Below, piece by piece: positions 3,901-42,793 of a stretch of 64,000 nt of DNA (position 1 is its first letter; each line of letters starts with the position of its first letter). Position numbers and translations under genes: made by a program. The notes under the pieces were generated by a model, which was not told the origin of the DNA, did no database searches, and saw only the letters and a program-made list of their open reading frames with translations. The stretch is from Morinoia aosen (Eukaryota; Arthropoda; Malacostraca; Amphipoda; Talitridae). The stretch covers positions 14,884,058-14,948,057 of the forward strand of contig CM059576.1 in assembly GCA_030386875.1 (NCBI GenBank). The letters are read 5' to 3'.

Positions 3901-4123
3901 CCTACTACTAGTGATGATATTCATCTTTTTTCGGAGAACAATCATTGTTTATAAGCAACATGCTGTTTGGTATTGATATATTGCTCTTGTTGCTGATAAT
4001 TGACGGTTGGGTTTTCAAAATAATTTGATTTGATGCTAAGTTCGGCTCTCTACTTTCTTGTTATTGTCAATAAATAACCTGTCAATCGTCATTAAATAAT
4101 AACGGTGTTTTCTCTGTAGGGTC

Positions 4124-4485
4124 CGCTCAGGGGGACACAACTATTGTATCTATGGGAATTAGCGCTCCCAAGGGGAAGATGTGAGATCCCGAGGCGAGAG
4201 TTAGGTAGGCCTTCTTTGTGTTGAAATAAAATGTTTTTGTTATATTAAGGACCATTTTTTTTGGTTCACTGCAGTCCTGTTTTTCAGCACCTACTACTTT
4301 CTTCTTCTACTTTGATCTTGTTTCATGAACTTCTTTCTCATCCTACTGTTTCTATGCACCTTGTGCATAGATTCCCCATTCTCATATCTCCGTCCTAAAT
4401 GGTGCCTTCCTCCTTCCTCTCTTCGATACGCTCTTTTTTGTAGCGGTTAGGGAGGTTTAACTAACTTATAATCTTAATCATAATC
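4124..4485 (+). repeat. SINE-like dispersed repeat, copy 2
   Basis: Full-length copy with the structured 5' end, although the 7-bp hairpin carries one unpaired position (GACACAA/TTGTATC). The tail is AACTAACTTATAATCTTAATC. Flanking TCTCTGTAGGG and TCTCTTTAGGG may be an imperfect 11-bp target-site duplication. Confidence 0.8.
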
Positions 4486-5647: not shown

Positions 5648-6002
5648 CCCCTCAGGGGGATACAACTATTGTATCTATGGGAATTGGCGCTACCAGGGGG
5701 CTATGTAAGGGCCTGAGCTAAAGGTTAGGTAGGCTTCCTTTTTGTTGAAATAGAGTAGGTTTTTATTTTGTTACGGACCATCTTTTTTCGGTTCACTGCT
5801 GTCCTGTTTTTCAGCACCTACTACTTTCTTCTTCTACTTTGGTCATGTTTCATGAACTTCTTTCTCAACTTACTGTTTCTGTGCCTTTTCTGCATAGATT
5901 CCACGTTCCCTTAACTCCATACTAAATGGTGCCTTTTTCTTTCCTCTCTTTGGATCGCCTTTGTTGCGGATAGGGAGGCTTAAACTTACTAATAATCTAA
6001 TC
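5648..6002 (+). repeat. SINE-like dispersed repeat, copy 3 with perfect TSD
   Basis: Complete 355-bp copy flanked by a perfect 13-bp direct repeat TTCAAGGCTCACG at 5635-5647 and 6003-6015. This defines the element's ends: it begins CCCCTCAGGGGG and ends with an ACTAATAATCTAATC-type tail. Target duplications of variable length (13-15 bp between copies) indicate LINE-mediated target-primed insertion. Confidence 0.88.
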
Positions 6003-6307
6003 TTCAAGGCTCACGTAAATTTCTTGTGTTCACTATAGGCCTAAATGCGTTGTATGAAAAAAGGTATAATTTACACACGCACGTATGTCTTAAATGAAGT
6101 ATTTTGTATCTTGTGTTACATTGAACTTTTTGTAAAAAAGGAAAAAGACAAGCTTTCATTTAAGTTAAATCAAGAAATCATAGAAGTCTCTTATGTTTTT
6201 TCTATTTTATTTTCCCTACTCTGTTCTGTACTCCGATATCCCGCTTTCTTGTCTCTCCCCCCATTTCACCCCCATTAACACCCCCTCATCGCCTCCCTCT
6301 TCCCCAG

Positions 6308-6361
6308 GTCCGCCCCCCGCGGCACCCCAGCCCCCCAGGGAGTTCGACCCCCTCACCTCAG
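6308..6361 (+). CDS. Gene A exon: PPREFDPLTS segment
   Basis: 54-nt exon. The acceptor is a C/T-rich tract ending CTTCCCCAG at 6307 and the donor is GTGGGG at 6362. Entered in phase 1 it reads GPPPAAPQPPREFDPLTS and exits in phase 1. Phase 2 would create a TAG at the start of the next exon, so phase 1 is preferred. Its GC content is far above the flanks. Confidence 0.55.
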
Positions 6362-9300: not shown

Positions 9301-12300
9301 GTAATGAGAAGTGTAACAAATGTTATGTTGATATAATGCATATATTATGTATGTTGTGTTGTATTTATTTATATCCCATCAGGGGGACACAACTCTTGTG
9401 TCTATGGGAATTGGCGCTCCCAGGGGGGAATAGGTGTGAGGTCCCGAGCTGAGAGTTAAGTGAGCCTTCTTTTTGATGAAATAGAATGTTTTAGTTATGT
9501 TAAGGACCATCTTTTTTCGGTTCACTACTGTCCTGTTATTCAGCACCTACTATTTTCTTCTTCAACTTTTTCTTGTTTCATGAACTTCTTTCTTAACTTA
9601 CTGTTTCTGTGCACCTTGTGCATAGGTTCCGCGTTCCCTTTTCTCCGTGCTAAATGGTGCCTTCCTGCTTCCTCTCTTTGAACATCTTTGTCGTGGTAAA
9701 GAGAGGCTAAAACTTTTTTATAATCAATCGATTTCTTGTGCGACATTAAATTTCGGGGTCGTTCGCTAACGCATATTCAAAATACGTAGTGTTCATTTTT
9801 TTCTCATTTGGTGTGCCTGTCAATATTAATTTTTTACATCGTTGATCCAGGCACAGACTTTACCTTTGCATTATGGTTGAACTTCATTTTATGTAATTTT
9901 GTTCGATATTCGCAGTGTGGTCAACCGCACGCCTTAACACTTTGACTGCAACGTGCACCACCGGTGGTACACGGAGGTCATTTTCATAATGCTGCTGACC
10001 TGCCAGTAGTCACAAACTCAATTTTCATAAATACTTAATCAAAGCTAAATGAAGGCACGATCCAGTTTACGTTTGGTATTTTCTAAATAGTTTACTACAA
10101 TTGACTTTGAATTTTGGTTTGGTGTTGAGCTTAATATTTAGTAGTTGCAGTCGAAGTGTTGACTCATGTGTCTAATTCGTAACGCTCGTTAAATTGTGTG
10201 TTCGACTGAACCAAGTGAAGTTTCATTGCCTTTCTGTTTCTATTGCCTGGACATTTTGCTTCTTTCAATTTTGATTTTATTATTTTCCCCTATTTCTTCT
10301 CCGCTGCTCCTGTGCACCTTGTGCATTGATTCCGCGTTCCCTTGAGTCCATACATAACGGTGCCCTCCCTCTTTCCCCTCTTCGGATCTCATTTGTAGCG
10401 GTCAGGTTAACTTAATGTAGTTATTTTATTTAATAGATTTTTGTATGTATTTCAGGTAGCAGCTCGAGCTCTCCTGTGCACTCCACGCCCGGTAATGTTT
10501 TATTAATTATATCAATATAAGCTATTTTAATGAACGCGTCTATATGTGAATGTTCAGTAATTAATTGCTATATATAATAATTGGCGTAATTATCACACTT
10601 GAGATCATCCGAGTTGGAGACCTTTTTTCGTCCGAATCGTTTGAAAATCGGCCAGTATATGTCTTATGTGAAAGTAAACCTTTTTTGCTCCTGTCTTTTT
10701 TTCGATTTAGGCCTTAGTTTTTTTTGGACGAAAAATAAGTTTTTTGGTATATTTTATGTATATTTCAAATTGTATCTCCTCGTTGAGTTTTGATGCTAGA
10801 ACAAAAACAAAGACAGTTTTAGAATCCTTGAAACATTTCTAACAAACTCAGGGCTTTTTTTCAAATTCGAATTTTATCGATTTTTTCAAAATTTTTGGAA
10901 ATTTCTGAAATAAACAACAATTTTTTGGGTTTAGAGCTATATATTTTTTCGAAAAATTCGAATTTCAAAAAAAAGCCCTACTGAGTTTCTTAGAAATGTT
11001 CCAAGGATTCTAAAACTGTCTTTGGTTTTGTTCCAGCATCAAAACTCAATGAGATACATTTTGAATGTTGAAAATTTTTTGGGTACTTGCCATACAAAAT
11101 TTTTTGTTGAAGTGTAATATAATGAACAATTTATGTAATTGAATGCAGTTTTAATTTTTATTTCGATAATTTCCATACATAACTTCATATTCACAGTGTG
11201 AATTGTGATTTCCCCAAAAAAAAAATTATTTTATTTTTAAAAATGAATTTTTTTTTTCAGTCTGACTCTTATGAAATTTGACTATGATATGTAACTTTCG
11301 AAAAGAAACAATTTATTCCATTCGTTTTTTTTATTTAGGCCTTAGTTTTTGCAAAAATTTGACAAATTAGTTTTTACGTATTGATATTTCACTGATATTG
11401 ATATTTCAAGACGGATCCCCTCCTTCAGTTTTGATGCTAGAACGAAAACAAAGACAGTTTTAGAATCCATCGAACATTTTTAACAAACTCAGTAGGGCTT
11501 TTTTTCCATTTCCTTTATGTTCTCTTTTTATATGGGGTCAAAATCTGTCGAAAATGAAAAATTTTGGTCCCCTAACCCCCCCCGAGGGGGGGGGGGGATT
11601 ATTGTCCGTAGCGCCATAAAATTTTATGACGGAATAGTCCACCTAATAAGGGTCCTTTTCCTACAAAACATAAGAAATGACCCCCGGACCGACAGGGGCC
11701 GTGGATGATGTCCTTAAACATGTTCTAATGCAGAGTTCCGATGTTCATTTGCAGCTGTTACCCGCACGGACTCTCCAAGCGCCACCCCTTCTACTGCTGG
11801 CCAAGCCCCGCCTCCTGTCTCCACTCCCTCCACCAAACCCGCCTACTCCGTCTCTGGCCCCGCCCCTTCTGGAGGGGGCGTCACCTCATTGGCTAGTGGC
11901 TCCGCCACTCTTGGTACTGGCGCCACCTCATTGGTTGGTGGCTCCGCTCCTCCTGGGTCTCGCGCCCCCTCATTGGCCGGTAGTGGCTCCGCCCCTCCCA
12001 ACGCAATGACGAGTGGCTCCGCCCCTCTTGTAGCTGGCTCCGCCCATCACGGCGCTAGCCCCACCTCATTGACCAGTAGCTCCGCCCCTCCTGTGGCTGG
12101 CCCCACCCCATCCATTGGCCCCGCGCCCCAAATGGCTACGATGCCGTACCCTGGAGGCGTTTATTACCCACACCACGTGAACGTGGCCTCGTCGTCGGGG
12201 GCCACCACGAGTGTGAACTCAGCGCCCACCAATCACGGGGCGCCCCCCAGAGCTGTGGGGCCCTACCCCTGTGCCGTCGCGGTTGCGCACTTTCTCTGTA

Positions 12301-15300
12301 CATATGTTCGTACATATGCTGATGCAACGCCTGGGTGCGGTTTTACCGCAGTGCGGGTGCTTGGTCAGCAAATCGACACTATATAAAGACGTGCGCGACT
12401 CGCAAAGTCGCATTTGGACCGTGTTCCTCCCCTGTACAACATCGTTACCAGTAAACGTCGCCTATAACCAGCGTTATCTCTCTACCCTTCGGACTTCACA
12501 CCTACTTATGCCTTCACACTGGTGGCCATATCAGTGACGGACCCACGAATTCGCGAAGATATTTTGAAAAGAAAAGAAGATACAGTATTCGACGAGCAAC
12601 CTAAATAAGTTTGAGAAGAAGGTCGAGTGACTTCAGCAAATCAAGACGACGGAGATAACTACAGAGAATTCGAGAGAACTCCCGGAAGATCGTCTGGTGA
12701 CGAGAAGAAATATACTTTCTACGAAGATTATCTGCAGAGACTGCAGAGCAACGAGATATCGACTATAAGGACAGCATCTACAGACAGAGAGGTTCAGAGT
12801 TCTACGGAGAGGGCGGCTACGGAGCTGAAACCTTCAACTACGAGGTGATTCAGCCGACTACAGTTACGTTAACTTCGTGCTACGGGCGGAGCAGTGACGG
12901 TGCATCGCCTACAACGATGGCAGAGATCACGACATCGTGCGACAACTCTAACTACAATTTAAGATAAGTAAAGCAGCAGTTAATTGTGATAATTGTAACA
13001 GTGCCGTTGCAGCTAACTATTCATTGCGAGTGAGGCAGGCGGCGTGCAGCGTGCGCGTCAGCCAGTACGTGCGGGCGTCAAGGTCAAACTAGCTGGGCTG
13101 TACTTGCAGTTGCAGAGAGCAGGCTGTGTGTTCAATGACCCCTAGACATGAGCTGTTTTCAAGGTGTTACGAGTCTTATTTTTTAAAAGTGAGTGGCGCT
13201 ATTTTCTCGAGGTGTTGCTATAACTGCTTCAAGTACTTTTGTATTGTTTTAGTTGTGTAAATTTAATCTTGAGCAACGTTAAACTCATTTGAGCAGTGAT
13301 GTTATTTGTGTAATACGTAGAGACCAAACTCGTAACGTAATTATGCCTGAAATTTCAGTATCGAGTGATTTTCGAAATAGTAGAATGCCTACCACAGTTT
13401 TTTTTCTGATGTGGATATATTGGCGACAGAGAGATAAGTATACTTAAATGCCTTCTGTGGTCTGTACAACATGTAGGTCATGTGAGATTTATTTTTTTGC
13501 TGGTTGCGTCTGGTAGGATGATGGAGGGGGGAACTGCATTCCAATTTGCCCAAAGGTGATGCTGAAGACCTTTGTAAAAATCAACTTTCTAGCGTTAGAG
13601 TATAGTAAAATTAGAACAGGAATTGAAAGATAGTTTTCGACTAGTACAGAGCAGGCTGAGGATTAAGCCTAGCGAGAAATAATAACGATGAAATATGACG
13701 TAATGATGAGAAAATAATGATGAAATATTTTGTGGCTTTTAATGTGCTGAGAAGTGTTATGTGACTTCGAGAATTAAGAATAAATATAAGTAGGAAGGAG
13801 TAAAGATACTCTTCCGAGTGAGGTAAAATATCGTGGATGATATTCTGATGATACCTGATGTGCACGGATAGCACGGTTAAAGTAAGAATGAAGTATTTTT
13901 GAATACCGTAAATAATGCAGAGTGTCTGATGACAGACGTGGTTGCCCAGAGGTGGCGTAAAGAGTAATATTTGCGACGGTAGAGAGAGCCTCGAAAATGG
14001 CGGTGCTGTGGGGCAGTGAAAAAACCCCGAGACAGAAGTGCTGTGGGGCAGCGAATAACCCCGAGACAGAAATGCTGTGGGGCTATCTGGGAAAAGGCAA
14101 ATTAGTACCAGGTAATTCTATCAGCGAGGTCAAAGTATTGAAGTAGAAATGAATTCGCGCAGACAATTAAGTGAGTAAGCTTTAGAGAAGCGAATGTTTG
14201 CGATGTTCCCGGTAATGCGAATCTACCCAGGGTCGACAGTGTTTGTGGTGAAAGTTTCAATGCCATCTCTGGTAAAGACATTGGGGTAGTATCTGTAGAA
14301 CCGAGGCATTGTTGTAACGATATTCGTGTTGACGAACTAGGAATTAATGCCAGTGATACCATGATGGTCAGAGTAGCATTGTGGATTGTGTTTGTCCTTG
14401 TGCTGGCGAACAGAAGTATCATACGAGAGTAATAATGAGAGGCGATAGAAGCCCATTAATTAACCACACGTGGTGGTGAGGTAATTAGTTAAGAGTAACG
14501 AGAGTAATAGTGTGCAGAGTGTGCAGAGCTGTACGCAGCTGCACCGATACATTGAACTCTGAGAAAAAAGAGCACTAGACGACATGCAAACGCTGACTCA
14601 TACGTCAGACAGTGAGGCGCCGTATTTCCGGTGTCTGTGTTCAGCAACAGTTGCCAGGCAAGCTACGACGGCGTGGCATGAACATGACTGGTGAAGTCAT
14701 TTTGCAAGCCTACCCGAATTTCATACTCAGAATAGTTTTATGTTGTGTATTTTATTATTCAAACGTAAAAGAATGCAAAATTTATCGTCAAATCTCTCAA
14801 AGTTTCTACGGGATAATTAACAACTGATTGAACGATTAAAATTTAGAGTGCTTAACGTCAATATTGATTTTTACCTTGACAACTTTTCGTGTACGTAGCG
14901 TAAAATGTGTGTTTCTTATGTATTGAATTGTGTCTTTTTGTTGTATTTGCTTATGCTTCATGTTAACCTCGTATATGCATTAGTATTTAACCTTTTTAAT
15001 TAAGGCATTAACGTAACGCGATAAGTGAAACGTAAAGTACCCGTTCACAGTGTAACAGTTCAACAAGTAGAGTATAATAATACGTAATTTTCTTGTGCAA
15101 AAGCAGTACGTGATTATTGATTGTGATCTGTCGTGGCAAGAAACATTGATGATCTTGAAGAAATTAATTTTTTTTAAATTGTGCATCGAGGCTGAAAATG
15201 CCCCAGTTTTGCTCACGATAGAAACGGTGAATTAACAGTTTCTTAGTTTTGAATTCCACATTTGCGTGATAAGACTACTGATGCATTTTTCTTTTAAACA

Positions 15301-18300
15301 GAAATTTGAATGTCGGTCGGGGAGATTAAATGTAAATGCGGAATTTAGTCGTTCTTTATTGGGTTAGCAATTATGTTACGGGAAAATTCATGGATGGTAA
15401 TGAGGAAGCTACTTTTGGTTGTCATTAAAATTATTGATTTAAAAGCTTTAAGGAAGTTTACCCGTCATTAACTAAATAGTTAGATTCTGTAATGGATCAC
15501 TGGATCACTGTGACATTAATGGTGTTTCTCATTTTACTTTATTCAGGCATTCATGTACTAAATTTTGCGTTTTGGTCATGCTAATCGTTTTTGTATTGAA
15601 TTCCAATTTCAGTTCGAGCGTGTGCGAGCGGTAACACAACATCTGTAACACGGTAACATGGTACATGTACATGGCATCGCGTTGGTGTACGACAGCCTGG
15701 TGCCAGAGCGCTTGTCAACAAACATCGATGGCCTTGGCGGCAGCAGCGCTTTGCACGCAGCAAAGAGACTACTGAAATTTACCTTCGCGCGCAGTCAAGA
15801 GTTTACTGAAATTCATCTTCGCGCGCAGTGATTTCAAAACAGTAACTTACTTTGAAGATTCAATATGGTGTTAATACTTTATACTTTACCATGTTCGTAG
15901 TGTTGAAAACGTGGTTTAATAAATTTCGTAACTTAAAATGTGGTAATTATAAATTCAGAGTAGTTCAAGAATTTTGGACTTTGTTCACATGTTATTACTA
16001 TTGGATTACGATAAATTGAAATTGTTTAGTGATTTTCCTTTTATTTTTGCAGAGTGCGAAACCGATTTTCATATTCATATTCGATGTTCTAAACTAGTGT
16101 GTCTTCGATTTTGTTACGTATTATCTTATATCTTAATCCATGTGCTATACCATTATGTTACCGATAGAATTACGTTTTACGAGTCTACGGTACTCTGTTT
16201 ATTCTGATTGGTTGTTTTACTAATAGTGGAAAAATTCTGTTCTAATTTGTGCGATGTTTGGTTATAAGATTATCCAACTTCTATTTTTAAGTCTACGGTA
16301 ACGCAGACGATATTTTGAATGTTTCTTTTTGGTGAAAACTTTAATGATGCTTTATTTAATATCAACTCAACTTTTCTGTATCATTTTTCATTACCTACGA
16401 GGCAATAGTTTTGATTCTTATAAAATTTTCCGAAATTGCCTTTGCCGAAGAACTCGTGTTTTGCTCGGTGTTACTCTTTCACCAGAGATGTAAGCGAATG
16501 TTTTTATATTTACTCATGAATTAATATTAAGTTGGTATTTCCAAGCTTGTGTTTTACGTATTTCATTTTAACCATGTTCGCGAAGATGCTCGAGTCGATG
16601 CAACGTTCAGGTATATAATTATGATTTGTTTCATTTTGGTTTATCGATAAGCCAATTTATGCGAATACGTTGTTCACTTAAAATTTTAAAGGCATTGTGT
16701 ATTTAAATTTCATGCGTGTTTATTATTATACTAACGAATGTATTGGTTTTATTTAAAAATTTATGGCGAGTGTCAATGCAAATGTACGAGGTATCTGCGT
16801 GCCTTATTTCTTATTTTTGTTTGATTAAAAAACTTTTTAGTTGTTGTTTCAACGATGCGATTTTCTTTTTCATTTTTACTGCGTTAGCATTTGAACTGTT
16901 TACCACAAAACAATGTTAGAGTTAATTGTGTTTTTCATGGCTGGTGTTCATGTTAGCGGATTTTTGTTTTTTTTAGTACGACACGTGCCGAGGTGCATTG
17001 TTTTAAGGTTTTCTGTTGCCAGAAAATTTTTTATGTTGCAATGTTCAAGTGCCAAAATTTTTTTTTTTGCGTTCTATACGTGTCTTGAGCAGCGCCTCTT
17101 CCCATGTTTTTTTTGGTGATGGGGGTGTTTGCGTTTTTCTTTGCGATGCTTTTTGTTGAATTTAACTGGACGCGTTTGTTTTTCCTGTTACTGGCAGTTG
17201 TTTTTGCCACGAAAGGATTATTTTTATTTTTTTGGTTTTTCTAACCAGGATGCCTTTAGCTTACTGTGTTGATTTTTAATTTACGGTTCTTCCCTTTGAT
17301 TCGTGTATTTTGTAATAAATCAGGCATGGGGCAAGGTGTGTGCCGTCGCGGTTGCGCACTTTCTCTGTACATATGTTCGTACATATGCTGATGCAACGCC
17401 TGGGTGCGGTTTTACCGCAGTGCGGGTGCTTGGTCAGCAAATCGACACTATATAAAGACGTGCGCGACTCGCAAAGTCGCATTTGGACCGTGTTCCTCCC
17501 CTGTACAACATCGTTACCAGTAAACGTCGCCTATAACCAGCGTTATCTCTCTACCCTTCGGACTTCACACCTACTTTTGCCTTCACACCCCCCCTACCCC
17601 TCGTCTGCCTACCCCTACACCTCCGCAGGTATGTTATACCTTTATATTATGTAGTTATTTATTTGTTCAATTATATGTACGTTGACGTTAATGTATGTAT
17701 TTTTTTACGCAAACGTTTATATATACATGTTTTATTTGTACGGTTATATGTTTATTGATACATACGCTTTATTTGTAGGAGTAGAAATTAACTATACTTT
17801 CGGTCATGAAATATTCGCACGAGCATTTGATACATTGACTGATACATTAAATAAGTAAGAAAACTTTGATGATTTATGAAATTAGGGTATGGAAAATTTT
17901 CCCATTAGGCCGTGCCTTCTTTTCAATTACTTGACTGTAATGAAGGTTGTATTATTACTGTACATGTAACAGCATTACCCTCCGCGTGCAGGTTACTACT
18001 ACCCCTACCCCATGCAGGGGTGAGTACGGGGGTTAGGGGGGTCTGGTGTATGTGAAATGTTGTCATTTGTGCTGATATTGTGTGTTGAATGTGCCTATTG
18101 TGTGTACTGGATATTGTGTTGGTGTGTTGCGTCCTTCATTGCCTACCCCCACTACTTCCCTCTCATCCTCATTACGCCATTTTTTTCCCATTTCCCCCTT
18201 TTTATCCCCATTTCCCCCTTTTTATCCCCATTTCCCCCTTTTTATCCCCATTTCCCCCTTATTATCCCCATTTCCCCCTTTTTATCCCCATTTCCCCCTT

Positions 18301-19593
18301 ATTATCCCCATTTCCCCCTTATTATCCCCATTTCCCCCTTTTTATCCCCATTTTCCCCTCTTTATCCCCATTTTCCCCTCTTTATCCCCATTTTCCCCTC
18401 TTTGTCCCCATTTTCCCCTCTTTATCCCCATTTTTCCCTCTTTAGCCCCTATTCCCTCTCTATATCCCCTATTCCCTCTCTTTATCCCCTATTCCCCCTC
18501 TTTAGCCCCATTCCCCCCTTTTTAGCCCCATTCCCCCCTTTTTAGCCCCATTCCCCCCTTTTTAACCCCATTCCCTCCTTTTTAAACCCATTCCCCCCTT
18601 TTTAACCCCATCCTCTCCTTTTTAACCCCATTCCCTCCTTTTTAACCCCATTCCCTCCTTTTTAAGCCCATTCCCCCCTTTTTAACCCCATTCCCCCCTT
18701 TTTAGCCCCACTTCCCCCTTTTTAGCCCCACTTCCCCCTTTTTAGCCCCACTTCCCCCTTTTTAGCCCCACTTCCCCCTTTTTAGCCCCACTTCCCCCTT
18801 TTTATCCCCACTTCCCCCTTTTTAGCCCCACTTCCCCCTTTTTAGCCCCACTTCCCCCCTTTTTAGCCCCACTTCCCCTTTTTTAGCCCCACTTCCCCCT
18901 TTTTATCCCCACTTCCCCCTTTTTATCCCCACTTCCCCCTTTTTATCCCCACTTCCCCCTTTTTATCCCCACTTCCCCCTTTTTATCCCCATTTCCCCCT
19001 TTTTATCCCCATTTCCCCCTTTTTATCACCATAACCCCTTCCCCCAGATACACCCCCACTCACCCCATTACCCCCTCCATCAGGTACACCCCCACTCACC
19101 CCATTACCCCCTCCCCCAGGTACACCCCCACTCACCCCATTACCCCCCTTCCCCCAGGTACACCCCCACTCTCCCCATAACCCCCTTCCCCCAGGTACAC
19201 CCCCACTTACCCTATTACCCCCTCCCCCCAGGTACACCCCCACTCACCCCATTACCCCCCTCCCCCAGGTACACCCCCACTCACCTCATTACTCCCTCCC
19301 CCCAGGTACACCCCCACTCACCCCATTACCCCCTCCCCCAGGCTCCCCCAGGTACACCCCCACTCACCCCATCACTCCCTCCCCCCAGGTACACCCCCAC
19401 TCACCCCATTACCCCCTCCCTCCAGGTACACCCCCACTCACCCCATTACCCCCTCCCTCCAGGTACACCCCCACTCACCCCATTACCCCCTCCCTCCAGG
19501 TACACCCCCACTCACCACATCACCCCCTCCCCCGAGGTACACCCCCACTCACCCCATTACCCCCCTCTCCCCAGGTACACTCAGCACCACTAG
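6308..19593 (+). CDS. Gene A: Pro/Tyr-rich protein, C-terminal exons (interrupted)
   Basis: Exon chain inferred from splice signals and consistent phase: 6308-6361, 10456-10491, 11755-12269 joined to 17592-17628 across an LTR insertion, 17992-18019, and 19575-19593 (stop TAG 19591-19593). The first three junctions are phase 1 and the last is phase 2. The encoded tail contains PPREFDPLTS, SSSSSPVHSTP, a 170-residue Ser/Ala/Pro/Gly-rich stretch with 'SGSAP'-like repeats, MATMPYPGGVYYPHH, and an end with YPYTSAGYYYPYPMQG then YTQHH. The Tyr-Pro periodicity running across exons 3 and 4 supports the model. No folded domain is visible. Upstream exons lie outside the window or were not recognised. 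Low-complexity Y/P tails occur in RNA-binding scaffold proteins, but I do not identify the family. This haplotype is disrupted by the LTR element. Confidence 0.6.
6413..6463. repeat. short imperfect palindrome
   Basis: CATAAATAAACATTACACAG is followed about 10 nt later by its near-perfect reverse complement. It is a potential AT-rich hairpin in the Gene A intron. No wider element was recognised. Confidence 0.5.
6652..8301 (+). mobile_element. full-length Tc1-like DNA transposon
   Basis: 1650-bp element flanked by TA at 6650-6651 and 8302-8303. It has long terminal inverted repeats of about 185 bp starting CACTCGCGAGCAAAAGTTTG (left to about 6838, right from about 8115) that are about 95% identical. 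It encodes one broken DD34E transposase. TA target, TIR length and size all fit the Tc1 family. It lies in the Gene A intron between the exons at 6308 and 10456. Confidence 0.93.
7002..8034 (+). pseudogene. Tc1 transposase pseudogene (DD34E)
   Basis: Starts METTPTEAAQIVALLQEGLS with a paired-type helix-turn-helix (VARRLHIRQSCVSKVHKRF) and a GRPR-like motif (RPRSGRRRCTSERDDR), followed by the second HTH region (DVQQELRDVRGVAANEWTVR). Catalytic Asp 1 is in LFSDECR, Asp 2 in HDNARCH, and Glu in SPDLNPIEHVWDEL with 34 residues between Asp 2 and Glu. Lesions: TGA at about 7221, TAG at 7413 (Trp position), a one-base gain in the G-run near 7510, and TAG near 7906. The protein cannot be made from this copy. 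Usual family length is about 340 residues, matching the span. Confidence 0.9.
8302..8563. other. intronic spacer
   Basis: No gene is visible. It contains GTTAGGTAATGTTGA, which also occurs at about 6600 on the other side of the Tc1 element, suggesting a short older duplication. Confidence 0.4.
8578..9054. mobile_element. inverted-dimer tRNA-derived SINE
   Basis: Element flanked by a perfect 14-bp direct repeat ACAATTAATTCTAT (8564-8577 and 9055-9068). Inside, a tRNA-like head appears twice in opposite orientation: arm 1 (about 8577-8673, - sense) and arm 2 (about 8857-8953, + sense) are identical over about 96 bp. Each arm has an A-box-like TAGCGCAGTCGATAGCG and a B-box-like GAGTTCGAGTCTC. 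Between the arms lie about 185 bp of unique sequence starting with a 12-bp palindrome (AAAGGTGACCG...CGGTCACCTTT). After arm 2 comes about 100 bp of unrelated tail. One TSD around the pair means they inserted as a single retroposed unit. Confidence 0.82.
9375..9745 (+). repeat. SINE-like dispersed repeat, copy 4
   Basis: Near full-length copy in the Gene A intron. Its 5' hairpin reads GACACAACTCTTGTGTC. Compared with GATACAA/TTGTATC, both partners of the third base pair changed (T-A to C-G), so the stem is preserved by a compensatory double change. Confidence 0.82.
9937..10162. mobile_element. TTAA-type MITE (family M1), copy 1
   Basis: Short non-coding element with terminal inverted repeats CACTTTGACTGCAAC (left) and CACTTCGACTGCAAC (right, inverted). 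It is preceded by TTAA and followed by TTGA, a degraded TTAA target duplication. A related full copy lies at 31078-31309 and a partial one at 33762-33865. TTAA targets point to a piggyBac-like mobiliser. Confidence 0.7.
10240..10425 (+). repeat. SINE-like dispersed repeat, copy 5 (3' part)
   Basis: Only the 3' half is present: a CCTGTGCACCTTGTGCATTGATTCC block, then a CCATACATAACGG variant of the 3' hairpin motif. It ends about 30 bp upstream of the acceptor of the 10456 exon, so the element's pyrimidine-rich sequence sits in the branch-point/pyrimidine-tract region of that intron. Confidence 0.65.
10456..10491 (+). CDS. Gene A exon: Ser-rich microexon
   Basis: 36-nt exon between acceptor TATTTCAG (10455) and donor GTAATG (10492). 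In phase 1 it reads GSSSSSPVHSTP and leaves one base, which joins in phase with CT at 11755 to make an Ala codon. Small size and high GC within AT-rich repeats support it. Confidence 0.55.
10770..11510. repeat. hairpin repeat plus third direct copy
   Basis: A roughly 105-bp module (GTTTTGATGCTAGAAC, then AAAGACAGTTTTAGAATCC, ending AGGGCTTTTTTT) occurs at 10775-10880 (+), again inverted at about 10945-11062, and a third time in + orientation at 11410-11512. The first two form a long imperfect hairpin with a loop of about 70 bp. No ORF. Likely a foldback-type DNA element or its remnants, in a Gene A intron. Confidence 0.7.
11755..12269 (+). CDS. Gene A large exon, 5' part (Ser/Pro/Ala-rich)
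   Basis: Acceptor TCATTTGCAG at 11754. The frame continues from the previous exon (Ala-Val-Thr-Arg-Thr-Asp) with no stop to 12269. It encodes about 170 residues: SPSATPSTAGQAPPPVSTP, then imperfect SGSAP / SLxxG repeats (a degenerate GC-rich coding repeat 'TCATTGGCTAGTGGCTCCGCC'-like), then MATMPYPGGVYYPHHVNV and GAPPRAVGPYP. The exon is broken at 12269/12270 by an LTR element. It resumes at 17592 after a 4-bp CCCC target duplication with the frame exactly preserved. Confidence 0.65.
12270..12518 (+). repeat. 5' LTR of ORF-less LTR element
   Basis: 249 bp, TG...CA. Contains TATAAA at 12382-12387 in CACTATATAAAGACGTG, followed by a small hairpin (GCGACTCGCAAAGTCGC) where the transcript would start, and an upstream ACATATG...ACATATG repeat. 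Virtually identical to the LTR at 17339-17587. Confidence 0.9.
13985..14095 (+). repeat. tandem GGGG/CCCC hairpin repeat inside the LTR element
   Basis: Three tandem copies of a roughly 36-bp module TGCTGTGGGGCAGCGAATAA + CCCCGAGACAGAA. Each can fold by GGGG pairing with CCCC. It lies in the non-coding interior of the ORF-less LTR element. It could be a recognition or packaging structure, but that is a guess. Confidence 0.55.
14100..17338. other. non-coding interior of the ORF-less LTR element
   Basis: AT-rich, T-rich towards the 3' end, no ORF above about 106 codons, and no RT, integrase, protease or gag motif in any frame. It is unlike an eroded pol, because neighbouring dead elements still show clear protein blocks. 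Confidence 0.7.
17339..17587 (+). repeat. 3' LTR of ORF-less LTR element
   Basis: 249 bp, with one visible substitution relative to the 5' LTR. TATAAA at about 17451. Followed directly by CCCC and the resumed Gene A exon. Confidence 0.9.
17592..17628 (+). CDS. Gene A large exon, 3' part
   Basis: Reads PYPSSAYPYTSA in the frame that continues the 11755-12269 exon when the LTR element and one CCCC copy are removed. Ends GCAG before donor GTATGTTA at 17629, phase 1. The repeated YP pattern on both sides of the insertion shows that this was one exon. Confidence 0.6.
17992..18019 (+). CDS. Gene A microexon (YYYPYPMQ)
   Basis: 28-nt exon between acceptor CCGCGTGCAG (17991) and donor GTGAGT (18020). 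Reads G-YYYPYPMQ-G in phase 1 and exits in phase 2, continuing the Tyr/Pro pattern. Confidence 0.6.
18181..19030. repeat. 20-bp C-rich minisatellite
   Basis: About 42 tandem copies of CCCCATTTCCCCCTTTTTAT and variants (CCCCACTTCCCCC, CCCCATTCCCCCC) in the last Gene A intron. The G-rich complement has regularly spaced GGGG/GGGGG runs, so quadruplex or i-motif formation is likely. Long frames here (162 codons at most) are repeat artefacts. Confidence 0.93.
19031..19574 (+). repeat. 36-38-bp minisatellite carrying splice-acceptor copies
   Basis: About 14 tandem units of CCCCCAGGTACACCCCCACT + CACCCCATTACCCCCTC. Each unit contains a pyrimidine-rich tract, CAG, and the first six bases (GTACAC) of the real terminal exon of Gene A at 19575. 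The array therefore looks like repeated duplication of the exon's 3' splice site. Confidence 0.88.
19575..19593 (+). CDS. Gene A terminal coding exon
   Basis: After acceptor CTCTCCCCAG (19574), phase 2: G completes Gly, then Tyr-Thr-Gln-His-His and TAG (19591-19593). This differs from the upstream decoy units, which continue CCCCCACTCACC. A 3' UTR follows; a candidate AATAAA poly(A) signal is at 20186-20191. Confidence 0.55.
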
Positions 19594-20521
19594 CACCGCT
19601 GCACCTCCGGTCATCTCAATTAAGCCGCAATAATTGTACTAAATATTGTGCTCATTTCTCTATTGTACCCGCAATTAGTTCTGAGGACAAATTTGAAGGT
19701 ATTGCCGGTAATTGAAGGCGTTTAGTTATTTTCTTTGGGTTGTTTTTATTGAATATTTTGGGTACTGAAGAAAAAGGAGTGTGGAATATTTATTATTTTG
19801 AACACCGTAATTAGAGACAAATCATTTGCTGAAGTTTTTGTACTTAGGGTTTTTTTAGGATGGGTACGGTGTTTCGATAAGTTATTTTTTGTTATTTTGT
19901 TGGCTGGGGTTATGAGAATTGCTCATCGTTAATATTCAATAACTATTTTTAATTGTGCTTGAAATGTACCATCACGCGTTATGAATAATATATAATCCCG
20001 TTCATTCTAGGAAATAGTTTCCAAATGAAGAAATTTTCATAATTTCGCACCTAATTGAGGACTAACTTCATCAGTTGAACAAAACAAAGTGTTTCGAAAG
20101 TCCAGATTTGGTTTCAATACAAACTTTCATAAAAATTAAAATAAGTTAAAGTTTTCCTCGTGTGCATTTTTGTGCCAATATTATCAATAAAATGGATACG
20201 ATTTTTGGAGCGTCTTTTTTTATCATTATAAACCAAAAAATAAATAACTTGCGAAGAAAGAGTCCCGGGTTCAAATCCCGGCTACAGCATAGAGCATTTT
20301 TAAGAGTGAACAGCATCTCTGGTGGTTAGAAAACAGAAAAAGCGGGTACGGCATAGAAAATGTGATGTAATAGTATAGAAACTCAGTGCTCTCAGTGATG
20401 GCATAGGGCACAATTCGAATATGCAGTATTGTGGGTACGATAAATTAAAAATATATACCCAAATGAAGAAGAATGTTAACAAAATATACTCTACTAAAGA
20501 CCGAATGTAATGCTCCGTATT
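19594..20521. other. probable 3' UTR and spacer
   Basis: AT-rich, no coding signal. AATAAA at 20186-20191 could end the Gene A transcript. At about 20250-20281 there is a tRNA 3'-half-like piece (CCCGGGTTCAAATCCCGG) with no matching 5' half. Confidence 0.45.
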
Positions 20522-20868
20522 AGATTAGATTATTAGTTTAAGCCTTCCTATCTTCAACAAATGAGATCCAAAGAGAAGAAGGCACCATTTAGTATGGGGC
20601 TAAAGGAACGCGGAATCTATGCAGAAAGGGCACAGAAACAGTAAGATCAGAAAGAAGTTCATGAAACAAGATCTAAGTTGAAGAAGAAAGTAGTAGGTGC
20701 TGAAAAACAGGACAGCAGTGAACCAAAACAAGGTGGTAACATAACAAAAACATTTTATTTCAACGAAAAGAAGGCCTACCTAACTCTTAGCTCGGGCCCT
20801 CACATTGTCCCCTTGGGAGAGCTAATTCCCATAGATACAATACTTGTGTCCCCCTGAAGGGTTCACCA
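20522..20868 (-). repeat. SINE-like dispersed repeat, copy 6
   Basis: Full-length, reverse orientation. The tail (- sense) is AAACTAATAATCTAATCTAA. This is the first of the - strand copies; all copies from here rightwards are on the - strand. Confidence 0.82.
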
Positions 20869-25805: not shown

Positions 25806-28800
25806 CATTATTATTATTATTACATAAGAAAGTTTTAGCCTCCCTTAACTGCACGACAAAGATGTTCTAAGAGAGGAAGGAGGAAGGCACCATTTAGTAT
25901 GGAGTTGAGGGAACGCAGAACCTATGCACAAGGTGCACAGAAACAGTAAGCTAAGAAAGAAGTTCGTGAAACAAGAAAAAGTAGAAGAAGAAAGTAGTAG
26001 GTGCTGAAAAACAGGACAGCAGTGAACCGAAAAAAGATGGTCTGTAACAAAACAAAAACCTATTCTATTCCAACAAAAAGAAGGCCTACCTAACCTTTAG
26101 CTCGGGACCTCACTTAGCCCCCCTGGGAGCGCTAATTCCCATAGATACAATAGTTGTCCCCCTGAGGGGATTAATATGGTTTCACGAGTGTCAAGAGTTC
26201 CACACGGACATCTTTACATCAAAAATTTGGCAGCAAATGTTTGAAGAAGTTAAGGGGACGGTTCGGGGTAAAGAAAAAATCTGTAAGTTCTCGTTGGATT
26301 TTTCTGAAATATCTACCGTATGTGTAAATTGTTATGGATATTTTTTTTATTTGTGCGTATTTTTCGTAACCATACATGAAAAAGATTATTTTTAAAAAAC
26401 ATGAAAAACATGTGTTGCGGAAAATCCTACTCCTCCTACAATTTTGAACTCAGACAACTGAGAAAATATTTTATAGATAGCAAATTGTCTTTTCCGGAGA
26501 TCCGGTAAAAAATTTTTCGATTATTTGATTTTTTGAGTTTTAAGAACTTTTTTCCCTAAAAAATGACTTTTTTTCCACTTTTTTGAATAATTTGCTTCTA
26601 ATTTTTAAGGTGAATTGAAATTAAAAAAAACTTTTGCACCGGATCTATTTTCCCTTTTAAGCGCTATTGATTGGTATGCTCGCCATCTCTGTACCTTCAA
26701 ACTGTGGGAGGAGTAGGTTTTCGAAAATCAAAGTGATTTTGCAGAAACACCTTTATTCCAAAAAAAAATTTTTCGTTCTTTACATATTTTTAAATTGAGT
26801 CTTATCAGCGATTCTGTACCTTTTTATGTACCTTCAAAACAGTGGGAAAGGATCCATATCAAAAGTCAATAAATACAAGTTTCAGAACAGGGTTTTTTTT
26901 AGCAATTTTTTTTTCAAAGCTGGCTGATTTTTTTTCAATTACCTGTATTGCTTTGTAGCTCGTTTTAAGCCCTTTCGATTGATATAATTGCCATTCCTGT
27001 AGCTTTAAAACTCCGGGAGGCGTTTATGTTTACATAGCCAGCTAATTAGCTGATGACTCAGCAGCCGGACTCAAAACAAACACTCAATTACACCATCATA
27101 ATTTATCCCTGAGTAATAGAATGTTTTGTTTGAGTACAAAAGCATTTCAAGTGAGGCCATGAATGAACTCTCATGCTATTCCCGTAGAGAAACACTCAAA
27201 ACTGGCTCGTAATGGGGGGGAAGAGGGAGGTCACCCATCCATAGGTGCACCCCTAGATCACACTAGTGAGCGTCTTTTACCCCGTCCAGAAGACTAACCA
27301 ATTGACGTACTTGAAAGCCAATTATATCGTTGGATGCGCAAGAAATATCTCTATAAGATGAGTTTATAAACTGAAAAATTGCCATAATCCGAAAATAGAT
27401 CCGAACCGTGCCCTTAAGGGGGCAGAAGAAAACTTCGAAGCATCTTGAAACGATCACTGGCGTAAACCAGTTATAATGCATCGTGCGAGTCAACTCACTG
27501 AGGCACAACGCAATTAAGAAAGGGCTCCATGACACTGGGGATACAAGAAGCATGCTGAAAACAGTTTCAACACAATTAATCAAGGGACCAAAGCCCAATC
27601 AACACTGGTTGGGAAACGAGAATAAAGTTGATCACATTGAGAATTACAAAACAAGACTCAATACCATCAGTCAAAGATACAATCACTCTACGACAGGCAC
27701 CACAATTTTGAAAAAAAATATATATTACACTAACCACCAATCAAGCAATCAAACAGACAATAAATCTCAATTCAACAGAATTTAAAATCTAGAATAATGG
27801 AGTGTGAAGCGAGACCATTAACTGGAACCAGATTATAACATCGGTCAGCCGCTAATTCAATAGTTTTGCAATAAATTGAGCTAATCTAAAGTGAAAAGCT
27901 TTAAATCATTCATAAAGCAGTTAGAATAGAATTAAATCTGCTGAATGAAAAGTTTTGCTAACTATGTTCGAAATGCTCAAAACAAGAGGTGAAAGCAGTA
28001 ATAACGATATAATTGTCACAAAATAGTGTTCAAAAACAGGTAGAAACAGACTACATAAGAAGTAAATTCAAATTTTCATTGGATTCACAAATACTCCTCT
28101 GAAATCAAAGAGAAGCATTCAAGAAGAGAGCGAGTTATCAACTGGAAGCATTCAAGAGGGAAAGTAACCAGTAGGAAGCACTGAAGAAGAGAGTAAGCAA
28201 TCCACAGGAAGCACTCAAGAAGAGAGTAATGAACCAATCAGAAGCACTAAAGAGAGTAAGCAACCAATTAGAAGCACTGAAAAGGAAAGTAACAACCAGT
28301 TAGAAGTACTCAAAAGGAAAGTAACAACCAGTTAGAAGTACTCAAAAGGAGAGGAAACTACCAATTAGAAGCACTCAATAGAAGAGTAAGCAACCAATTA
28401 CAGCACCTGGGGTTCCTGATGCCAGTCAACGGGTTCGTTCTTTACAGTAACGGCCTCCAGCTCAGCGTCAGGCACTTCACTTTTGATGTAAATTACTTTT
28501 AGATGGCTCCCAGAGCTCGGCCCATCACCTGCAAGTGACAAAAGCTCATTGAGAAAAATTGCATCTGAGATAACAAATCTAGTAACAGCTTTTTATGTGT
28601 TAAAATACAAAGATAATTCCTTAATTTTGACAATGCTAACAATTTTGTTAGTATCCTAATACATGAAAACTGGAACAATCTAGAAGGTTAGGAAAAGAAA
28701 TCTAGTTATACTTACGGCAGGTAACACAATATAATTCTTTCAATTAAATAGTTAATACTTCACAAGCTTTGGAGATTAAATGAGCTTAATCATATTTTAG

Positions 28801-31800
28801 CTTGAACCAGCAAATTTAAGGACAGCGTCCCCCAAGAAATTGAAATATTGGGGGGAAAATAGATTTTATCCACTATAGAAGGTAAAAGAGGCCAGGTACA
28901 TCCTGTGAAAAAATGAAATTACGTTCGCTCGTTACACCCACTACGGGTGTTTGAAGAATGTGGGGAAGGGGAGGGGGAAGTGGTATTTAATCATCTTACA
29001 CTTCCCCCTTGGCTCATCACGGCGCAATGTTGCTACGCCATCTTCATGTCTATTTATTACTGTGTAATGATTTCAAGGGTCCTAGCTGACCCCACAAATA
29101 ATGACAAAGAAAAATTGAGATTGTTTATATTTACCCATTTTGCCTTGGTTTTGAGGATCGGAATGTGGTGTTTCAAAATGCATCTCCTACAGTTTTCAAG
29201 CTACTGTGATGATTTTGGTATTATTGGATGCAGAAAAGTGTGTAGATTATGGGAAGTGAAGGATTACTTCTAAATTTGCCAAAATCGAACGTAGTGACGT
29301 CACAAATGAAAATTTCCGCCCAAAAAATGATGGCCCCTCAAAAAAATTTTATTAAAATTTTAATTATGACTTTAAAGATTACTAGTTTACTTACTATAAT
29401 TTACACAATATAACTCACCCAATGATACAAAAATCATTACTGTAGCTTAAAAACTGTGGGAGGAGATGCATTTTTAAATCCCCCAAAAACACTCCATTTT
29501 CTATGAATATCTCATTTTCTTTGCACAATACCGCATTTTTTGTAGAAGACGAACGATTCCAAAATGCAGTTCCTATCAGTATATCAAATTTCATTGCTCT
29601 AGGTTCAATAATGAAAAAAAACATATGGGGGAGGCCATCCTTATGTGACAATAAGAAGCGTGAAAGAAGGTCTTCAGAATAAAAATTAGTTACAATTTAT
29701 AAGAAACTAGCAAATACAATAAAAATTAGCATTAAAAAATGTACTTTACACTTCACTATATTTCTGAAAGACATCATGCAAGTTTGAATTAAAAATTAGG
29801 GTAAACCAATTTTTAAATCATTCATGAGACATTCAAAATAGAACAAAATCCAGTGGGTGACATGTTTTCTCAATTATGACACCATTTCTCAACCTTGAGG
29901 GAGGAAGTTTCACACTGAAGACAAAGACAAAAACTCAACACAGCTCCTTATACCAAGGAAGTCCTCATCATTAACAGAGCAATACCACAGTTTTTTGCAA
30001 GTTTTCAAATTGGATTAGATGTAAGTTTGAGCCTATTTATCTGCAACTCAGGTGTTCCAAAGATAGGATGGAGGAAAACACCATTTAGTTTGGTGTTGAG
30101 GAAATGTGTAATCTATGCACAAGGTGAATAGAAACAGTAAGTCCAGAAAGCAGTTCATGAAACAAGATTAAACCTGACGCAGAAAGTAATGAATACTGAA
30201 AAACAGGACAGCAGCAAACCGCAATAAAATGATCCACAACAAAACAAAAATGTATGCTATTTCAACAAAAGAAGGCATACCTACTTTAGCACAGCATTCC
30301 ACATATGTTCCCTGGGAGTGCTTATTCCCATGGAAACAAAAGTTGTATCCCCATGAGGGGTGACGGTTTTCAAATACACAACATAACAGCCATAGCATAG
30401 TTCGGCAGACAGAAAGAATATCAGTGAGATAAGGCTTACTATGGGAGTAATTCTCACAAAAATTCATGGTGTGAATGCTCAGGTGGCAGACGCTAAAAAT
30501 TATGTTATCTAAAAGAATAATAAACATGGTACTCAAATAATCTATTCCAAACAGAGATTTACATGCAGTATTGCACTCCTAAATATTCACACATCATCTA
30601 CACACATGGCTGTGTACACCAAAATGCATGCAAAATGACAGCATAAACCCAAAAACAATAAGTTGCAGATAATGTTGAGAACATTAAAACTTTGTGTCTC
30701 ATGTTGCCACATCTCCACTCACAGCATGGGACTTTCAATTTGTCTATGCTCCTGATATTCACAAAACGTACATACCAATTTCATTATGTGCAAACTTTGT
30801 TTCATCTTTTGTATGATGCAAGAAATTCTATTCAAACCAGAAGGCTTTACAGAACATGTCAAAATAATGACTAGAGAGAAATATTTACGTGCAATTTGGT
30901 TCTATTTTTTAACAAAATTTTTGCAACATTATACCCTATTAGTGTTCAGACCTGTCAAAAATGCAGGGATGTGATATTTTTCCTAAATAAATCTCCCAGA
31001 TGTAAATGACAAACTATATCCATCCTAAAAGTACCATTGATTAAAATTTTGTTTGTTTCAAAATACGATCAAGTATCCGTAACACTTTGATCACAATTGG
31101 TAAAACTGATGTGCAATATTCAACTCAAATTTATTGTCAATAGTAATAAGTCATTTTGAAACTAGCAATCATTAACTGAATCATACCCTCATCTAGCTTT
31201 AACTGAGTAATCATGAAAATTGAGTTTAGGACTACTGGTTAGTCAACAGCATTATGAAAATCTTATCCATAGCCACCAGCAGCACACGTTGCAGTCAGAG
31301 TGCTAAGAGGGTTATAGAGAGACGGCCAACAAAAAAAAACTGTGCATACATGCAGAAACTCTGCCAATTGTAATAACGTAGGGGAAAATACAAACAAAAA
31401 ACATAGAAATTAATTTATTTACAGAGACATCTGGAGTTTTACTATATAAGGATAATTTACTTTTGTTTCATTATATCATAATCTGTAGGCACTACCCTCG
31501 AACTAGTGGGGAGAGCAGAGCATTGATTTTAAATCCATTTTACTTCATTTCCATATAGAAAGGCTTAGTTTTCTACTTAAATATTAACTGTACTGTCTTT
31601 GTCTCACACCCAGACCAGATCTAAGTCTCATCTTGCGTATTGTTCTCCGCTGCAGCTTCTTGCTTTATGAAATCCTGCCTGCAGCACAGCCTCTCCATTT
31701 TAGCATCTGTCAGCTTGTTCACCATAACCACTGCACGCTCCATGCTGGGTGCTTTGGAACCTGAGCATTGGGATGCTTGTTTGCTCTAATATTCCAGAAA

Positions 31801-34289: not shown

Positions 34290-34429
34290 GCTGGGTGCTT
34301 AGGTACCTGAGCATTGGGATGCTTGTTTTCTCTAATATTTAAGAAAACTGAAGCTATAACTTGAAAAAATTATAAACATAACAGTGTTCTTCCATCATTA
34401 GAGAATATAATCGTAATACCCCAACAAAC

Positions 34430-34850
34430 CCCCAACAGAGGAGAAATAAAGAAGGCATTGCTTGGTATAGAGTTGAGGTATTATGCTAGATATGTTAGTT
34501 TGTGCCTTCCTTTGCCCAACAGAGGTGATCCAATGGGAAGAAAATAGGAGGCAGCATTCAGTTTGGAGTTCAGGCAACAAGGAGTCTACACACAAGGTCT
34601 GCTGTCACACAGGATCCCTGCATTCAAGAACAGCAAGTAAGAAAAAGTTTAAGAAAAAAATTGAAGTTGAAAAAAAAGTTATGGATACAGTAAAAACAGT
34701 AACTGAAAAAAAGATGATCTGTAACAAAATGAAATCATTTCATATAATAAAAAGAATAACTTCCTAACTTCAAGCCTAGGATCTGAAAATTCCTCCAGGG
34801 AGCAGTAATTACCAAAGATACAGAAGTTGTATCCTCCTGAGAGGACAGTA
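34430..34850 (-). repeat. SINE-like dispersed repeat, copy 10 (highly diverged)
   Basis: Recognisable by GATCTGTAACAAAATGAAAT..., TCCTCCAGGGAGCAGTAATT and GATACAGAAGTTGTATCCTC, the 5' hairpin in - sense. It lies upstream of Gene B exon 1, in the gene's orientation. Confidence 0.6.
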
Positions 34851-36089
34851 ACTATCAATTGTTTACTTTATTACATATACATCTATTGGGAGTCTCTTCC
34901 ACAGCAAAGTCCACCAGCACTATGTGAATTTACTCCTGCAGCTTTAGAAGAATTCAAAGATTCCAGGCGTAAAGAACTGACACAATCACACATCCAATTT
35001 ACCAAACCTGGGTCACTCATGCAGGCCAAGAACCTCCAGCCATACCCATCATGACAATCACAGTCAGCCACTTACAATCACTATCAACTTATCTCCAACT
35101 GTTGGTCATCTTCAGAAATGATTGTGCAATGTGCTTTCAACTCCATTTGTTTATCCAGTTTTTGACTAACCTCTAACATCCCTTCCCTGTGCTTCTGACT
35201 TCATTGTTTCCTTCACCAACAATTCCTTTTTGATTTTCCCATTTGGATAAACCATTTCAACGCACAGCAGTTCACACTTTATGCCACCCTTCCTACATTT
35301 CCCACACTCCTCAGCTCATTGATTTACCTATCCCATAATATCACCCCAGCCATACTCCTCACACACTCCATCTGGAGTACATTCCACTGACTCCTATCAG
35401 CCACTTTTGAGCCTCAAGTTTCATATCCATCCAGCACATCAGCCTAACACTCGCATACTGTTAGGAGAATGCTTAGATGTATGCCTCCTCAATACAGAAA
35501 TGCTAAAGGTTCCAGAAGACCAGCATAGCACCACCTACACAGTCAATAATTAAGGAACACTCGAAGCAAACCATATGAATGAGCAAAATATAACAGAAAA
35601 TCAAGGAAAACTACAAAATGGTGACATGGGTAATTTGTTAGCAATCCCAACGGCTGTGCAAGAGAAGCGTCATGAATTTCTGTCAACACTAGAAATCATA
35701 GCACAAAATTAAGTCAATAGAGAGTAGTAAGTTGAATTATCGACTCTTGCAAAAATTCAAGATAGCTAAACAAAAAAACTAGGATTCAATTAACATTCTA
35801 TAAATAAAATTAAAGAACTGAGAATAACTCATAGGTCTTGAATGATGTTACACATTTAATCAAATCTTGAACACAGTTATCTAGAAACTGAAGACAATTC
35901 AAAACTAAACAAAACTTAAGCTTTGGGAACAAATAAATACAAAAAACACAGTCACAGGATTTGAGGAGAGTCATCAAAGAAGTAGAGCAGGCCATGAAGG
36001 CTCACCTGTCAGACTCCAGAAGTCAATCAGTGGCCTCAACACTGCCAGGCACTCCAGCCAGCACCAACTTGCTGGTCTCCACCTGACCC
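34851..36089. other. no gene recognised
   Basis: AT-rich with a C/T-rich, low-complexity part at 35100-35460. No exon or transposon terminus that I can defend. The right end abuts the truncated Gypsy copy. Confidence 0.45.
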
Positions 36090-40346: not shown

Positions 40347-40563
40347 TTTTACCCAGCTTTACAGCCAATTGTCAGATATCTACCTGAAATAGTAGTAGCA
40401 ACAATATCAGTTGCAAGAGTAGCCAATTTAAGAGACTAATAATAACACACCTTGTTAAAAAAAACACAGAAATTTATAGCATCAATACTCTAGTCACAAT
40501 AATTCTTATTTCCTTCATTAGTCTAGCCTCTCCCAATAGTTCTACAAAAATCCTCGTCGCCAG

Positions 40564-40976
40564 TATAATGGAGTGGATAGCCCTACACTAGAGCACAGCA
40601 TAGGTTCCACATAGACACAACATAGTTATAGTACTGAACACAATAGACAATGCAATGACACAGCTAGGTAGGTAAATAGTTCACTCACCTCTTGGATACC
40701 TTAACTTTATACTCAAATGACGGTACTGTGGTCAGTGAGGTTAGAGTGGAGATAGACGGAAATAATATAGAATAGGATAGAATAGAATTAGTACATTAGT
40801 TTAGAACTTAAGAAGTTAGATACCAACCACAGTAGGCGATTATATACACATTCGGTCAACATTTACTTGTTGTCGAATCCGAGGCCAATAGCAGACTGAC
40901 TTGCGAGTGTTGCTCTCTCGAGCGTTGCCAACTTATGGTCTCTCTAACTAGAACTTACACTACTCGCTATATTACA
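40564..40976 (-). repeat. 5' LTR of Gypsy 1
   Basis: 413 bp. In - sense it begins TGTAATATAGCGAGTAGTG and ends CATTATA. Similar to the Gypsy 2 LTRs, but it lacks their 84-bp internal tandem duplication and instead has its own short insert (about 40618-40650). Confidence 0.85.
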
Positions 40977-42441: not shown

Positions 42442-42793
42442 TTATTATATAGGAAAGTTTTGGCCTCGCTTTATCACGACAAAGACGTTCCAAGAGAGTA
42501 AGGATGAAGGCACCATTAAGTATGGAGTTGAGAGAATGCGGAATCTATGCACAAGGTGCATAGAAACAGTAAGCGAACAAAGAAGATCATGAAACAAAAA
42601 AAATTGAAAGAGAAAGTATTAGGTGCTGAAAAACAGGACAGCACTGAACCGAAAACAAGATGGTCCGTAACAAAACAAAAACCTATTCTATTTTAACGAA
42701 AGAAAGCCTACCTAACCTTTAGCTCGAGCCCTCACATAGTCCCCCTGGGAGCGCTAATTCCCATCGATACAATAGTTGTATCCCCTGAGGGAT
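42442..42793 (-). repeat. SINE-like dispersed repeat, copy 12
   Basis: Full-length copy with an ATT-type tail (TATTATTATTATATAGGAAAG in + sense). 5' end intact with GATACAATAGTTGTATC. Confidence 0.82.

Follow-up and report, generated by a model that had tools for sequence, protein, structure and literature searches.

An LTR element interrupts a probable coding exon of a duplicated gene

The stretch analysed here, hereafter the window, comprises 64,000 nucleotides of the talitrid amphipod Morinoia aosen (GCA_030386875.1, contig CM059576.1, positions 14,884,058 to 14,948,057, forward strand). It holds a long terminal repeat (LTR) element of 5,318 bp, with TG...CA ends on direct LTRs, which divides an exon whose relatives are found elsewhere in the same genome. 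It is very probable, in our view, that this element belongs to an LTR family without coding sequence, large and active until recently, and that it integrated sense-wise into a C-tract in the exon of one member of a duplicated gene, duplicating 4 bp (Table 1). An original prediction, made from the letters of the window, had described 249-bp LTRs with one difference bounding a 5.3-kb element; we re-found these coordinates and the single mismatch, which opposes A at 12508 to T at 17577.

All genome searches were made in the assembly from which the window comes (G000, 1.99 Gb, 29 contigs), in which loci are labelled L0xx and the contigs concerned are C3, C9, C19, C21 and C24. The insertion site is a C-tract, and CCCC accounts for 11% of local 4-mers. 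The CCCC duplication is convincing because exact 4-bp target duplications were found in 14 of the 15 LTR pairs of the family that we examined, and because the related locus L051 (L051/L059, C21:10.49 Mb) aligns straight across the site. Indeed, window 11713-12269 is followed there directly by 17587-19579, with the overlap of a few bases expected of a target duplication, and L051 is a natural empty site. At L054 (C9:79.53 Mb), the predicted empty sequence was also present at the insertion site, and none of the 17 fetched relatives of the exon carried the element there. The exception among the 15 pairs was L032, a local tandem arrangement having an LTR in common with L031. When the element was cut out together with one CCCC, the frame ...RAVGPYP + PYPSSAYPYTSA rejoined in a phase matching the exon at 17992-18019, just as the original prediction had said. 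In-frame rejoining is, however, expected of any LTR insertion within an exon.

A search with the joined exon peptide gave 46 matching stretches at 19 loci: 13 on C21 (window included) and 2 on each of C3, C9 and C19. C21 is one 121-Mb sequence carrying 13/19 of the loci, and the exon family seems to have spread mainly within this one chromosome. Eighteen loci were examined, the copy at C3:3.97 Mb being left out. The frame was open throughout the exon in three of them, namely the window (element removed), L051 and L054. The other 15 showed at least two non-triplet gaps each in coding columns and no open frame, as judged by eye from printed translations, and are pseudogene-like. L051 and L054 also retain the next exon with its splice sites; this exon had no match in the other fetched relatives, many of whose stretches stop before it. 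The original prediction had overlooked the related loci, 19 with the window, and the two uninterrupted in-frame copies. As to the identity of the host gene, the open reading frame of the exon had no match in Pfam and none in PDB, and plus-strand Pfam scans of four stretches returned transposase and helix-turn-helix domains as well as sub-threshold matches. Within the exon, at 11855-12111, tandem units of ~42 bp alternate ATTGG and GGCTCCGCCC, an array being detected at 11855-11998; on the opposite strand, we take these motifs to resemble CCAAT and GC boxes.

Table 1. Positions in the window of the element, its target-site duplication and the host exons
Feature	Position	Strand	Remarks
Possible upstream exon PPPAAPQPPREFDPLTS	6308..6361	+	phase-compatible; predicted exon
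Host exon, upstream part	11755..12269	+	
Target-site duplication CCCC, left	12266..12269	+	flank of 5' LTR
5' LTR	12270..12518	+	249 bp, TGTGCC...TTCACA; TATATAA at 12380-12386
First in-frame stop (TAA) of interrupted host frame	12384..12386	+	inside LTR TATATAA, after 38 LTR-encoded residues
Internal region, non-coding, 4,820 bp	12519..17338	+	outer parts kept in 13 other copies, middle modular
Putative primer-binding site TGGTGGCC...	12520..12541	+	starts one base past 5' LTR
Putative polypurine tract GGCATGGGGCAAGGTG	17323..17338	+	adjoins 3' LTR
3' LTR	17339..17587	+	249 bp
Target-site duplication CCCC, right	17588..17591	+	flank of 3' LTR
Host exon, downstream part	17592..17628	+	donor CAG/GTATGT
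Next host exon GYYYPYPMQG	17992..18019	+	phase-compatible; present in L051/L059 and L054

The insertion is younger than the gene duplication

The two LTRs of the window differ at 1 of 249 positions (0.4%; 95% interval 0.01-2.2%), as against 56 of 862 (6.5%) in the introns of the window and L051 (p = 1e-5). LTR divergence is far below intron divergence, and therefore the insertion postdates the duplication and is much younger, which bears out its original description as recent. The ratio of observed to expected CpG was 1.33 in the LTR and 0.86-1.99 along the element in 400-bp steps, the value for the window being 0.74; such a high ratio fits with little decay of the element.

The insertion was probably tolerated because unbroken copies of the gene (L051, perhaps L054) remain, and the window copy may already have been under less constraint. 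The original prediction had proposed, as one possibility, that the element was tolerated because it truncates a low-complexity tail; gene duplication explains the tolerance more simply than a tail that can be spared. When exon changes were polarised with L054 and the other copies, 10 derived substitutions were assigned to the window, and 3 plus a 3-bp deletion to L051. Besides, window 10601-11712 is taken up by an insertion of 1.1 kb that contains inverted as well as direct repeats and stops 42 bp short of the exon acceptor; it is missing from L051 and from the other relatives spanning the place. From the sequence, the excess of derived changes and this second insertion hint at weaker constraint on the window copy.

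Some observations speak against an expendable window copy. The excess of derived changes, 10 versus 3, was not significant (p = 0.09), and the surroundings of the possible upstream exon at 6308-6361 matched no DNA elsewhere in the genome. Because of this last result, the gene may be more complete at the window locus than at any other, and the window copy not the expendable one. Taken to its end, the argument makes the window locus the main functional gene and L051 and L054 partial copies, the insertion then being a serious allele of the animal that was sequenced, perhaps heterozygous. The possible upstream exon is phase-compatible, and the homologous blocks of the relatives start inside the intron that follows it (at 10246-10253 in L053, L054, L055, L057 and L058, and at 10303 in L056, L051 reaching further, to about 9884-10092). 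Yet a DNA search would miss a diverged upstream exon elsewhere, and both the derived changes (p = 0.09) and the insertion next to the acceptor point the other way. We hold this explanation to be the most serious of the alternatives, albeit rather unlikely.

The exon is moderately supported as coding

By itself, the open plus-strand frame over 515 bp says little, since 14% of order-2 simulations have one. Between the window and L051, the exon showed 14/546 differences, compared with 56/862 in the two intron stretches (p = 0.0009); one of the exon differences depends on gap placement, and with 13/546 the p value is 0.0003. Exon differences were counted on both a protein-guided and a multiple alignment. 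For window-L051, window-L054 and L051-L054, the ratio of nonsynonymous to synonymous rates (dN/dS) was 0.40, 0.36 and 0.38 on the former, and 0.49, 0.42 and 0.58 on the latter, these three pairs not being independent. The synonymous excess was significant with both alignments for window-L054 (p = 0.004 and 0.0095). The two other pairs are less favourable to a coding exon: for L051-L054 the excess hangs on the alignment (p = 0.008 vs 0.15), and for window-L051 it was not significant (p = 0.13 and 0.31).

One could thus ask whether the "exon" is a GC-rich dispersed, non-coding repeat with a frame open by chance. Its presence at 19 loci, the 15 of 18 copies without open frame, the frequency of such frames in simulations and a synonymous excess that is clear in only one pair of three would all agree with this. 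Moreover, the 42-bp tandem units explain some of the in-frame gaps. Nevertheless, such a repeat accounts poorly for an exon more conserved than the introns between the window and L051, for the synonymous excess between the window and L054, and for the next exon and splice sites kept in L051 and L054. Many of the gaps common to a wide range of copies are also triplets (63, 33, 12, 6 and 3 bp), though gaps of 1, 2 and 4 bp are likewise found in more than one copy, recurring in several. We therefore consider a non-coding repeat improbable and find moderate support, at the sequence level, for a coding exon. The original placement of the insertion inside a coding exon, which we regard as probable, is supported by the conservation of the exon relative to the introns, with the natural empty site and with dN/dS values of 0.36-0.58.

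Predicted effect on the host protein

According to the preferred reading, RNA of the element would have been made from its LTR promoter, then reverse transcribed and integrated by the proteins of another LTR element. The host protein is predicted to end after GPYP and a further 38 residues encoded by the LTR, and, given the sense orientation, transcripts could terminate in the 5' LTR or start in the 3' LTR. It might be argued that the element is spliced out of the mRNA and that the gene still works, as the exon ends flanking the element are intact and in frame. In a simple scan, which would miss weak sites, no donor that agreed with the consensus at 7 or more of its 9 positions was found in 11755-12518, that is, in the upstream half-exon and the 5' LTR. 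Exact removal by splicing is therefore unlikely, and we give a working spliced product only a slim chance. On the whole, the original prediction was right on the age of the insertion and on the absence of genes, has moderate support on the coding exon, and was incomplete on the consequence.

The element belongs to a large family in which no coding capacity was found

A genome search with the LTR yielded 1,544 first-look candidates, and the 40 that were scored were all full length with at least 96% identity; with the first 982 internal bases, there were 996 first-look candidates and the 40 scored all reached at least 94%. Twenty stretches of the family were fetched, giving 15 LTR pairs and 13 complete copies besides the window, the latter drawn from about a thousand candidates. 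In the 14 pairs with duplicated sites, the 5' and 3' LTRs showed no difference in 8, one in 4, three in 1 and 15 in 1; between LTRs of different elements (window excluded), the median number of differences was 9 and the maximum 16. Solo LTRs appear to exist as well: 4 of 28 LTR loci seen with 1.5-kb flanks look solo by their matching 4-bp flanks, 10 reverse-lying loci having been set aside.

No coding capacity was found in the copies compared. A six-frame Pfam search of the internal region of the window copy gave nothing above threshold and one sub-threshold match (E 0.21), and scans of single open reading frames added two further sub-threshold matches (E 0.13 and 0.23). The longest stop-to-stop frame in 12519-17338 is 158 residues, a length equalled in 14 of 300 order-2 shuffles. 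No window frame of at least 80 residues was intact across all 13 other complete copies. One window frame of 83 residues stays open in all four copies that retain its segment, none of the other window frames of at least 80 residues being open in every copy that covers it, and frames of up to 165 residues occur in other copies. Hence the original statement that the element lacks gag and pol agrees with the lack of Pfam matches above threshold and of any shared frame of at least 80 residues in the 14 copies. As to superfamily (Ty3/Gypsy, Copia, BEL or ERV), the window element has no pol from which to assign it. Descent of this single copy from a coding LTR element, by decay or deletion, would suit its short, gene-free internal region but is very improbable, given that the 13 other complete copies have common internal ends, yet keep no window frame of at least 80 residues intact throughout.

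What is conserved in the family lies at the ends. In 240-bp steps, identity across all 13 copies was 92-100% in 12519-13478 and 86-99% in 16119-17318, whereas blocks of the middle were present or absent copy by copy, with 0-100% identity. The window copy also contains two short 34-bp arrays. TGGTGGC follows the 5' LTR in the window and in 13 of 14 printed element rows, being absent in L032, the tandem copy; L035 and L036 diverge further along the putative primer-binding site. The putative primer-binding site may resemble tRNA-Ile. A pattern made of the LTR end and the putative primer-binding site had 52 exact matches in the genome, against 0 for the reversed control, and GGCATGGGGGAAGGTG precedes the 3' LTR in all 14 printed rows. 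No signal was seen when the initial 300 internal bases were folded (z 0.21), an Rfam scan of the window gave 0 matches and ARAGORN found 0 tRNAs in it. A 22-base LTR pattern had 0 matches in IMG/VR and GTDB contigs.

The contrast between conserved outer ends and swapped middle blocks, in copies whose LTRs are up to 16/249 apart, might point to template switching and selection on packaging and priming signals. Tentatively, the family could thus be an evolving parasitic RNA, in which middle blocks are swapped by template switching between co-packaged RNAs, non-coding packaging and priming signals are under selection, and the helper is unrelated. We view this extension as possible, though less likely than not.

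The original prediction had held that the element was mobilised in trans and had proposed a genome search for an autonomous partner with the same LTR. Mobilisation in trans fits with a family that has no shared open reading frame, yet shows 0-1 LTR difference in 12 of 14 duplicated-site pairs. Because an autonomous partner was not found, it is something that we infer: none was present among the 20 fetched stretches, and the genome-wide look was not completed. Two candidates were rejected. The copy L044/L045 (C24:5411266-5426172, 14.3 kb) has a weak Retrotrans_gag match (E 0.0052) that falls below the family cut-off, and its extra 5.2, 2.3 and 1.6 kb were read as nested insertions and not as partner genes. 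These extras have repeats of their own, direct repeats of 1,377 bp and 386 bp, both 100% identical, and inverted repeats of 21 bp, 95% identical. Incidentally, the LTRs of L044/L045 are identical, yet three apparent nested insertions are already present. The coding frames of L032, for their part, are on the opposite strand, resemble the Gypsy elements of the window and fall within an apparent local tandem duplication.

Other aspects of the family data weigh against the interpretation as a whole. Copies were picked for their resemblance to the LTR of the window, a choice that biases the sample to young copies, and Pfam coverage of the family extends to the window copy and to parts of one nested copy only. 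Besides the missing partner, no candidate emerged for the source of the enzymes.

Other features of the window

Downstream of the interrupted exon, at 18165-19580 in a host intron, lie C+T-rich minisatellites with a 20-bp unit repeated 43 times and a 37-bp unit repeated 14.5 times, and the alignment with L051 crosses them. Much of window 27446-36090 shows inverted homology to C21:10473-10484 kb, just upstream of L051, which is probably a segmental duplication with inversion. Two Gypsy-type copies lie on the minus strand at 35977-40976 and 49319-54522, with an identity of about 93% along 3.6 kb, and the terminal repeats of the second (466 bp, 98.7% identical) each carry a doubled 84-bp unit. 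A dispersed family of ~350 bp is represented in the window by nine copies or more (450-770, 4122-4484, 5648-6003, 9373-9722, 20518-20861, 25811-26170, 30009-30360, 39734-40088 and 42436-42791), one of them apparently inside a Gypsy copy.

Comparison with known systems

The case is of a known kind, in which a non-autonomous LTR element sits in one member of a pair or group of gene duplicates. The locus described here provides a clean and internally dated example of gene breakage by coding-free LTR elements. The filled site, two empty in-frame sites in paralogs and many sister elements all occur in one genome, and the relative age of the insertion, its target duplication and the fate of the duplicate can be read without a second species. 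The family also seems suited to asking from which element the enzymes come and what non-coding signals it requires.

Plant LARD elements resemble the window element in their non-coding internal region of several kb and in their assumed mobilisation in trans. In the description given in PMC3532108, their LTRs measure about 4.4 kb and their centre about 3.5 kb, as compared with 249 bp and 4,820 bp here. The window element therefore departs from the strict plant size description and fits the loose sense of an element with several kb of non-coding sequence. The ant element PbTRIM, in the account of the same report, is likewise a non-coding LTR element with no known autonomous partner, and its primer-binding site and polypurine tract have putative counterparts in the window element; TRIMs, however, are <1 kb and the window element, at 5.3 kb, exceeds that length (PMC3532108). 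In mouse, ETn/MusD, VL30 and the ERV-beta4 insertion of Ednrb-s are presented in PMC6466679 as non-autonomous, gene-mutating elements moved by the proteins of other elements, the Ednrb-s insertion being 5 kb and non-coding. These belong to mammalian retroviral families with known or likely helpers, in contrast to the present family, for which a helper was not found.

The nearest animal precedent is given by the cqUNK families of Culex quinquefasciatus, non-autonomous LTR families with no coding sequence and no known master copy (PMC3286476). According to that paper, they have short LTRs (208-315 bp in four tabulated entries), a length of several kb, a primer-binding site, target duplications, many genomic matches and insertions in genes, which recall the element of the window with its putative primer-binding site. 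They differ by carrying tandem arrays, where the window element has only its two short ones, and by their target duplications, of 5 bp in three of the four entries and none in the fourth, whereas 4 bp are duplicated here (PMC3286476).

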